A DNA stretch of 64,000 nt from Nitrosomonas eutropha. GTDB taxonomy: Bacteria > Pseudomonadota > Gammaproteobacteria > Burkholderiales > Nitrosomonadaceae. The notes below the pieces were generated by a model. The model was given only the letters and a program-made list of their open reading frames with translations, searched no databases and was not told the DNA's origin. The position numbers were made by a program, and so were the translations under genes. Below are positions 26,142-27,705 of the stretch, piece after piece. Within the stretch, counting starts at the first letter, position 1, and every line of letters starts with the position of its first letter. Location: assembly GCF_900116685.1 (NCBI RefSeq), contig NZ_FPBL01000001.1:1-64000 (forward strand), read 5' to 3'.

Positions 26142-26386
26142 CATTGAAAACCAGCATATATATTTGCTCCGAGTAACAACTTCTATCATGCCTGCCTGAT
26201 CTGTCTATCACAAAAGGCTTTGCGAACCGCGATACTGCTACTGCGACCCGAAGTTTGCACAAGCAAAGCAAGGCTTCAATCTCTCTTCTCTTCCCTCCCG
26301 TAACCGGCTATACTTACAGCGACGTACGCAAACATATTGAAAATAAACAGAAAATTTATATGATATATGTCATGCGTTTTGTTGTT

Positions 26387-26413
26387 GAACTTTATCCTAT
26401 ATATACACTCTTA
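26387..26413 (+). promoter_or_regulatory. Sigma-E-like promoter upstream of amoC
   Basis: GAACTT at 26387-26392, 16 bases, then TCTTA at 26409-26413; the envelope-stress consensus is GGAACTT-N16-TCNAA-like. Spacing is ideal. Published work on the divergent amoC3 of N. europaea, as I recall it, reported sigma-E control, which fits. The mapping of the start site is prediction. Confidence 0.65.
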
Positions 26414-26465
26414 CAAGTACCTGAAAACAGGTGTTTTTTATACTAAAACAGAGGAGGTGCTCGCC

Positions 26466-26576
26466 ATGAAAGCTTTGAAATCCGGGTGTTGTATGAGGTT
26501 GACTAGATTAACCGAGGTTTTCTTGACAACCCGGAATTGTCCTAAATCAGATTTCACTCTGAAACCAGACTGGTAA
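26466..26576 (+). CDS. Small leader ORF in the amoC 5' region
   Basis: 36 codons (MKALKSGCCMRLTRLTEVFL...), starting after an unusually strong GAGGAGGT ribosome-binding site at 26450-26457. It ends 58 bp before amoC. It is downstream of the predicted sigma-E promoter, so it would be on the amoC transcript. It has no homology I recognise; a leader peptide or a small stress protein are both possible. It could also be a spurious frame, but the RBS is much better than chance. Confidence 0.45.
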   Translation: MKALKSGCCMRLTRLTEVFLTTRNCPKSDFTLKPDW

Positions 26577-26589
26577 CTGACTTTTATCA

Positions 26590-26609
26590 GGAGCTTCCAC
26601 GGAAACTCC
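26590..26609 (+). promoter_or_regulatory. Short dyad before the amoC ribosome-binding site
   Basis: GGAGCTTCC-AC-GGAAACTCC, nearly palindromic, between the leader ORF stop and AAGGAG at 26621-26626. It could form a small RNA hairpin or be a protein site. Function not known. Confidence 0.4.
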
Positions 26610-26634
26610 AATTTTCGCGAAAAGGAGTAGTTTT

Positions 26635-27459
26635 ATGGCTACAAATGTATTGAAAGACAAAGCTGCACAGCAGGTTGCTGATCAACCAACTTATGATAAA
26701 TCTGAGTGGTTTGATGGCAAGTACTATAAATTCGGGCTGCTGCCTATCTTAGCTGTGGCTGTGATGTGGGTTTATTTCCAGCGTACATACGCCTATTCTC
26801 ACGGCATGGACTCGATGGAGCCGGAATTTGACCGGATCTGGATGGGCTTGTGGCGTGCTCAGATGGTCGCTCTGCCTCTTATAGCACTCTTCGTGTGGGG
26901 ATGGTTATATAAAACCCGCAATACTGCGGAACAGCTCGCCAGTCTGACTCCAAAGCAGGAAATAAAGCGGTATTTCTATTTCCTGATGTGGCTTGGGGTC
27001 TATATATTTGCAGTTTACTGGGGATCAAGCTTCTTTACCGAGCAGGATGCTTCATGGCACCAGGTGATTATCAGGGATACGAGTTTTACTCCTAGCCATA
27101 TTCCTCTGTTTTATGGTTCATTCCCGGTATACATCATCATGGGAGTGTCGATGATTATTTATGCCAATACCCGGTTGCCGCTGTACAACAAAGGGTGGTC
27201 ATTCCCTCTGATCATGACCGTAGCAGGACCGTTGATGAGTCTGCCTAACGTTGGCCTGAACGAGTGGGGACACGCCTTCTGGTTCATGGAAGAACTCTTC
27301 AGCGCACCGCTGCACTGGGGCTTCGTGATTCTGGCTTGGGCTGCCCTGTTCCAGGGTGGGCTTGCCGTACAGATCATAGCTCGCTTTTCCAACTTGCTTG
27401 ACGTGGAGTGGAATAAACAAGACAGAGCCATACTGGACGATGTCGTAACCGCTCCTTAA
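26635..27459 (+). CDS. amoC: Ammonia monooxygenase subunit C, stand-alone divergent copy
   Basis: 274 residues, integral membrane with about six TMs. The metal-ligand set of the PmoC/AmoC family is seen as D-x3-H-x12-H in [18 protein letters not shown] (about residues 143-160). AmoC pairs with AmoA and AmoB to oxidise ammonia to hydroxylamine. No amoA or amoB follows; the next gene is convergent. Nitrosomonas carries such a divergent singleton amoC3 besides the operon copies, and this gene fits it. The upstream sigma-E-like site suggests expression under membrane or heat stress, perhaps to replace damaged AmoC. Confidence 0.97.
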
Positions 27460-27473
27460 TCAGGTAAATTTAC

Positions 27474-27498
27474 GGCCCCCGGATTATTTTAGGGGGCC
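27474..27498. terminator. Stem-loop after amoC
   Basis: GGCCCCC at 27474-27480 and GGGGGCC at 27492-27498 with an 11-base loop, 15 bp after the amoC stop. There is no T-tract after it, so it may terminate weakly or protect the 3' end. Confidence 0.65.
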
Positions 27499-27603
27499 AG
27501 GCCTGAATGTTATCCTTCCCTGATTACTGAAACATGATGCTGCTAGCACTGGCATCAATTACCACACGGCACTTGCCTGGTAATCAGAAATTTCTACGGA
27601 ATT

Positions 27604-27636
27604 GGCTACAGACAGTAATTATTACTGCCTGTAGCC
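27604..27636. terminator. Long hairpin between convergent amoC and peroxidase genes
   Basis: GGCTACAG-A-CAGTAAT then ATTACTG-C-CTGTAGCC: two stem blocks with one mismatch and a one-base centre. It lies between the ends of amoC (+) and the peroxidase gene (-) and could terminate either. No clear T-run follows. Confidence 0.5.
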
Positions 27637-27705
27637 GCTCTGTTACATTACATATAAACTTTTCCCTGCAAAGTCTCACTCATTCACACCAAACAGCAGA
27701 TCAGA

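Follow-up and report, generated by a model that had tools for sequence, protein, structure and literature searches.

The window, a stretch of 64,000 nt of Nitrosomonas eutropha DNA (contig NZ_FPBL01000001.1, positions 1 to 64,000), carries a solitary amoC gene of the amoC3 type. It is preceded by a leader with a sigma-E-like promoter, a short open reading frame (ORF) and several RNA structures. The gene tusA lies 5' of this leader, and a gene for a di-haem cytochrome c peroxidase lies 3' of amoC3 on the opposite strand. The features of the locus are as follows:

26387 to 26413, + strand: sigma-E-like promoter GAACTT-N16-TCTTA, from a pattern match and conservation in relatives
26418 to 26433, + strand: hairpin ACCTG-AAAA-CAGGT with an additional G-U pair, where the RNA is predicted to begin, from folding energy against shuffles
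26450 to 26459, + strand: Shine-Dalgarno sequence of the leader ORF, AGAGGAGGTG, an 8-base match
26466 to 26576, + strand: leader ORF of 36 codons, MKALKSGCCMRLTRLTEVFLTTRNCPKSDFTLKPDW, from a profile search of genomes and column permutation
26481 to 26492, + strand: 5' arm of an internal stem, within the ORF, from pairing over relatives
26526 to 26535, + strand: 3' arm of the internal stem, within the ORF, from pairing over relatives
26538 to 26573, + strand: codons 25-36, under the strongest constraint within the ORF, with a pN/pS of 0.075 against 0.42 in codons 10-20
26563 to 26637, + strand: 3' leader element, hit by covariance model R1 (E 1.5e-11), the only match in the source assembly, the window being among the 15 sequences from which the model was built
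26569 to 26575, + strand: ACTGGTA element, common to several Nitrosospira and Nitrosovibrio leaders, where it does not lie at the end of this ORF
26590 to 26609, + strand: hairpin before the amoC ribosome site, dyad GGAG-c-TTC-CACG-GAA-a-CTCC, from covariation
26622 to 26627, + strand: Shine-Dalgarno sequence of amoC, AAGGAG, a 6-base match
26635 to 27459, + strand: solitary amoC (amoC3 type), 274 aa, Pfam AmoC 433 bits and NCBIfam AmoC_BACT

A preliminary description of this leader had claimed a sigma-E site, a leader ORF with a ribosome site better than that of amoC, and a dyad 5' of the ribosome site of amoC. Both the sigma-E site and the dyad are present at the coordinates listed here; the former is kept at the orthologous place in relatives, and the latter is a covarying, conserved RNA hairpin over 15 sequences. 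The claim on the ribosome site was likewise borne out, the Shine-Dalgarno match being 8 bases for the leader ORF and 6 for amoC.

The source assembly (2.34 Mb) holds two amoC matches. The second copy, on another contig, shares 70% identity with the window amoC and has an amoA motif 3' of it. Judging from sequence identity, close orthologs of the window gene are found in strain Nm57 (AmoC 97% identical) and in N. europaea ATCC 25978 (87%), the latter with the same leader. Altogether, 87 distinct amoC leaders were collected, 22 of them with an AmoC at least 75% identical to that of the window. One of these 22 (L090, with 76 nt upstream and 217 aa) was excluded from the leader counts and from the tree. 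In the midpoint-rooted tree, the solitary-type ("amoC3") AmoC proteins form a single clade comprising 21 of 86 tips with a support of 1.0; the 75% cut had been picked after the identities were known, and the tree then returned that group as a clade. The window AmoC is a member of the AmoC family and lies inside this monophyletic group, and the 2200 nt 3' of its gene contain no amoA motif. For comparison, 31 leaders with a recognised amoA motif 3' were taken as amoCAB operon leaders, of which four with less than 250 nt upstream were dropped, leaving 27; the amoA test employs a short motif list, by which operons can be missed. Leaders below 75% identity and with no recognised amoA were placed in neither the solitary nor the operon group.

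Promoter and 5' end of the leader RNA

The pattern GAACTTN15-17TCTTA has a single match in the window, with 0.07 expected and at least one match in 7 of 100 shuffles. Across the collected leaders, the strict pattern GAACTT-N15-17-TCNNA was found in 13 of 21 solitary leaders and in 0 of 27 amoCAB leaders, against 0.24 and 0.08 expected from shuffles; as the leaders share descent, these and the other shuffle-derived expected numbers are not independent tests. A relaxed pattern occurs in 16 of the 21 solitary leaders and in one of the 27 amoCAB leaders. The sigma factor itself is encoded in the source genome (RpoE, TIGR02939, 331.7 bits at a cut-off of 236.15). We also considered the genome-wide count of GAACTTN15-17TCNNA, which proved uninformative, with 17 matches in the source assembly and 51 for the reversed control. 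Since the pattern is not enriched genome-wide, the case for the promoter rests on its conservation at the orthologous place, which supports a promoter of the sigma-E type for the amoC3 leader.

Between the -35 box and amoC, identity of the leader to six relatives is 73.6-94.4%. Over the 200 nt 5' of the -35 box, identity is 89% in the near-identical Nm57, a marginal 78% in HPC101 and 68-74% in the other four relatives, the last values lying inside or close to what three shuffles per relative gave. The gene 5' of the leader is tusA in N. eutropha Nm57 and a different gene in N. europaea. Because identity falls off 5' of the -35 box and the upstream gene differs, the conserved unit appears to start at the sigma-E site. 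Just 5' of it, a sigma-70-like site, TTGAAA-N16-TATGAT (10/12), lies at 26337-26364 and is also present in N. eutropha Nm57; it is a possible second promoter.

Transcription would begin a few bases past 26413, and with such a start the RNA would open with a hairpin able to shield its 5' end. For 18 distinct 30-mers behind promoters of this kind, the summed folding energy is -81.8 kcal/mol, compared to -43.2 ± 7.5 kcal/mol for shuffles, and 0 of 300 shuffles reached it. Taken singly, the hairpin is unremarkable in N. halophila, at both G112 sites and in the five segments of the ACTGGTAG type that L010, L012 and L156 contain. Stem-loops at the 5' terminus, e.g. that of ompA, stabilise mRNAs, and the amoC3 leader hairpin resembles them in beginning at the predicted first nucleotides. 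A tandem arrangement was observed 5' of amoC in L010, L012, L155 and L156, which contain consecutive small ORFs, several of them behind a sigma-E-like site whose -10 box is followed within a few bases by ACTGGTAGT. These tandem sites look like serial sigma-E start sites.

The leader ORF and its peptide

The leader ORF starts with an ATG at 26466, 52 nt past the -10 box, and ends with a TAA at 26574-26576, leaving a gap of 58 nt to the amoC start. A profile of seven leader peptides, to which an eighth from SJ624 (L117) was added later, gave strong matches in 8 of 125 Nitrosomonadaceae genomes (E <= 7.3e-24, one each). The next matches begin at E 0.004 and are weak, that in G112 being the one inspected individually. 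All eight strong matches lie directly 5' of amoC3, in G040 with the contig ending within amoC, and no strong second copy was found elsewhere in the 125 genomes. The eight ORFs each comprise 36 codons with a W-stop end, and residues C9 and C25 are invariant in all eight peptides.

We analysed the constraint on the ORF by column permutation. The observed amino-acid identity was matched in 1 of 5,000 permutations for the whole ORF, in 203 of 5,000 for codons 1-21 and in 0 of 5,000 for codons 22-36, and half of the peptide is free to vary. In codons 25-36, amino-acid constraint is accompanied by third-position changes (1 of 10,000 permutations). The nucleotides encoding KPDW-stop (AAACCAGACTGGTA) recur in G112 outside its ORF, so the conservation of KPDW may partly reflect a nucleic-acid element. 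For this reason the test on codons 25-33 alone matters, in which 14 of 10,000 permutations reached the observed value. The reading of the ORF as a real coding sequence stands up: amino-acid constraint exceeds nucleotide constraint, and the eight occurrences among the 125 genomes all precede amoC3. The 36-codon ORF is apparently translated. The peptides of the window and of N. europaea, searched out of the eight, matched no family in Pfam at E <= 1 and none in NCBIfam, so that the leader adds a constrained small ORF outside the families of both collections, as far as these two peptides were tested.

An upstream ORF of 8-60 codons led by a Shine-Dalgarno sequence is present in 16 of the 21 solitary leaders (2.2 expected) and in 8 of the 27 operon leaders (4.9 expected). 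Upstream ORFs are therefore common in the solitary clade, with five of its 21 leaders lacking one by this definition. The constrained 36-aa peptide was found within the 125 genomes in the europaea/eutropha/halophila group only. Four further solitary leaders keep the ORF start with a shortened or different peptide. G112 has a homologous leader with the same start (MKALKTGTC); it retains the outer pairs of the internal stem as well as the ACTGGTAG element, and its ORF has 25 codons. In G005 and G079, start and ribosome site are kept and much of the internal stem is retained, and a stop follows after 9 codons. Nm132 has a similar start and a different ORF of 30 codons. By this comparison, the leader appears to be older than the 36-aa peptide.

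Other small ORFs were seen in more distant relatives. Nitrosospira and Nitrosovibrio leaders contain a family of ORFs, 25-29 aa long and sharing a hydrophobic stretch (MxxGKLLAISYFLGM...), located before amoC in L166-L170 and L178, and with no amoC match nearby in L162-L165 and L177. ORFs of about 136-154 aa with an N-terminus like that of this family occur at L174, L176, L183 and L186. In L151, L152, L153, L159 and L160, the ORF and the leader element are retained without an amoC 3' of them.

RNA structure within the leader

The hairpin at 26590-26609 is paired in 84.2% of cells over the 15 sequences, with two-sided changes in six of its eight pairs. We counted 15 cells with two-sided changes, compared to 5.4 ± 1.7 in shuffles, none of which (0 of 500) reached this number. 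Folding of the whole leader as a single sequence was rejected as evidence (z -0.84, with 39 of 200 shuffles equal or better). As the leader alone folds no better than shuffles, the hairpin claim rests on covariation among relatives. The internal stem within the ORF is paired in 94.4% of cells over ten sequences, and its covariation score was reached by 4 of 500 shuffles. Over twelve sequences it is weakly supported, the score being reached by 57 of 500 shuffles and one slid control scoring slightly higher.

Covariance model R1 of the 3' leader element matched 28 places in 23 of 125 genomes, 15 of the 28 being sequences of the model's own build. In 23 of the 28 places amoC follows 3', five of these 23 being cut by a contig end, and near the other five no amoC was matched. 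An AmoC (59-72% identity) is also encoded on twenty IMG/VR viral contigs, of which 18 were searched with R1 together with 16 amoC loci of lower identity; the best match in these 34 loci had an E of 0.61. A search of Rfam 15 gave 0 matches at E <= 1 in 26142-27705, and the plasmid records contained no match to 26380-26640.

Two further structures were considered. RNAalifold predicted that the leader start (GCCATGAAA) pairs with the start of amoC (TTTTATGGCT). We rejected this pairing as evidence for coupling: its outer pairs (columns 60-250, 65-245 and 66-244) are lost in two of ten sequences, and no pair shows a two-sided change. An alternative hairpin over the amoC Shine-Dalgarno sequence (ACTCC with GGAGT) was also rejected, with -4.5 kcal/mol in the window compared to -7.9 kcal/mol for the conserved hairpin. 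When the 5' arm was blocked in folding, the other species showed no common alternative hairpin, and we found no two competing structures that are conserved around the ribosome site of amoC.

Proposed function of the leader and alternatives

A stabilising effect of AmoC on ammonia monooxygenase under stress is assumed in PMC5960693, and according to PMC6967387 the singleton amoC transcripts of N. europaea were 1.9-fold up under oxygen limitation, a change that was not significant. The amoC3 of N. europaea is the same gene as that of the window. Its protein and its expression under stress were reportedly described by Berube and Stahl in 2012, and control of amoC3 by sigma-E is said to have been reported in print. 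We know of no account of how the expression of a solitary amoC is set after transcription. Likewise, no description of an amoC leader ORF or peptide was found in the literature searched, most subscription papers lying outside its reach. Our data suggest that the leader adds a further level of control to a key protein of the nitrogen cycle.

Comparison among relatives provides the promoter site, the coding constraint, the hairpin before amoC and the restriction to the solitary-amoC clade. Beyond these, we infer the transcription start, translation, stabilisation, coupling and any arrest. With roughly even confidence, we propose that the region is the leader of a sigma-E-driven, monocistronic stress mRNA of amoC3, in which translation of the leader tunes amoC3 output in cis. 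A ribosome would load at the strong leader site, read the 36-codon ORF through the internal stem and stop 58 nt 5' of amoC, the conserved hairpin then standing just 5' of the amoC ribosome site. Leader translation would thereby open the internal stem, keep the leader covered and stable, and set ribosome loading on amoC. In the N. europaea, N. eutropha and N. halophila leaders, the constrained peptide end may add a nascent-chain step, either slow termination or arrest. In favour of this cis-acting leader we count G005 and G079, in which the long peptide is lost while start, ribosome site and most of the stem within the ORF persist. Constraint peaks towards the C-terminal end, as in arrest peptides, and the fixed place directly before amoC3 in eight of eight strong matches fits a regulatory leader peptide. 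Against it stand the weak internal stem over twelve sequences, the unremarkable single-sequence fold and the failure to find conserved competing structures; moreover, direct termination-reinitiation would usually span less than the 58 nt between stop and start.

As the main rival we consider a functional stress micropeptide co-expressed with AmoC3, which might e.g. bind the enzyme or the membrane, the place of the ORF then being simple operon co-expression. Purifying selection on the peptide, its fixed length, the strong ribosome site and the two invariant cysteines would all fit such a small stress protein. However, the peptide has no strong second copy in the 125 genomes, four leaders within the clade retain the ORF start but have lost or replaced the peptide, and half of it varies freely. 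We consider a micropeptide possible but rather unlikely.

Within the cis-acting leader, a more specific version would make the peptide end CPKS(D/N)F..KPDW-stop a nascent-chain sensor, such that under envelope stress the leader ribosome would pause near the stop on a signal read by the peptide, and the pause would remodel the leader and let amoC3 be translated. Arrest leader peptides of the SecM type are short or secreted with a constrained C-terminal end, and the amoC3 leader peptide is like them in the constraint on its end; no known arrest motif was recognised in it by eye. We regard such a sensor as doubtful. If true, a dedicated leader peptide would control translation of ammonia monooxygenase, layered on sigma-E.

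It is distinctly unlikely, in our view, that the leader acts as RNA only, i.e., that mRNA stabilisation or the binding of a regulator is the task of its ribosome site, stems and hairpins, with translation of the ORF incidental. The covarying hairpin at 26590-26609 and the 5' hairpin would be expected of such an RNA, as would G005 and G079, in which the ORF is cut to 9 codons and the stems are largely retained, but the amino-acid constraint with third-position changes in codons 25-36 and 25-33 stands against it.

Two copper-related upstream ORFs invite comparison. According to PMC9426467, CruR of Bordetella pertussis is a DUF2946 protein of 145 residues with CXXC and RAPP motifs and Rho-dependent termination, and it controls the next gene post-transcriptionally. 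The amoC3 leader resembles it in having an upstream ORF with cysteines and a conserved C-terminal stretch, yet contains none of the CruR family features described there. CutF of Rhodobacter capsulatus, as described in PMC9973294, is likewise encoded by an upstream ORF, with a stem-loop 3' of it close to where ribosomes load on the next gene, but it is exported, with a CxxxC motif and a proline-rich end. The CutF stem-loop masks the Shine-Dalgarno sequence itself; the conserved amoC3 hairpin lies just before that sequence. Membership in the CruR/CutF (DUF2946) copper-uORF group was rejected on DUF2946 (two peptides against Pfam) and on the Cys and C-terminal motifs (peptide alignment). By analogy to these ORFs, which use cysteines and a C-terminal stalling-like motif according to the same sources (PMC9426467, PMC9973294), an arrest peptide that senses copper or redox state by means of C9 and C25, ahead of a copper-enzyme subunit, is conceivable given its two invariant cysteines and constrained C-terminus, but very improbable, as it has no DUF2946 match in the two peptides searched and no CXXC, CXXXC, RAPP or proline-rich end, is 36 aa long against 145 in CruR, and has its C9 codon within an arm of the internal stem, so that conservation of C9 may be structural.

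The cis-acting leader remains our preferred reading. The conserved cassette of sigma-E site, 5' hairpin, leader ORF and covarying hairpin occurs with this amoC clade and offers concrete nucleotides to mutate in cultured Nitrosomonas. The ACTGGTA element at 26569-26575 holds a UGG triplet, and UGG is the cleavage motif of an N. europaea MazF (PMC6186784); cleavage of the leader at this triplet might be imagined, purely as an idea.
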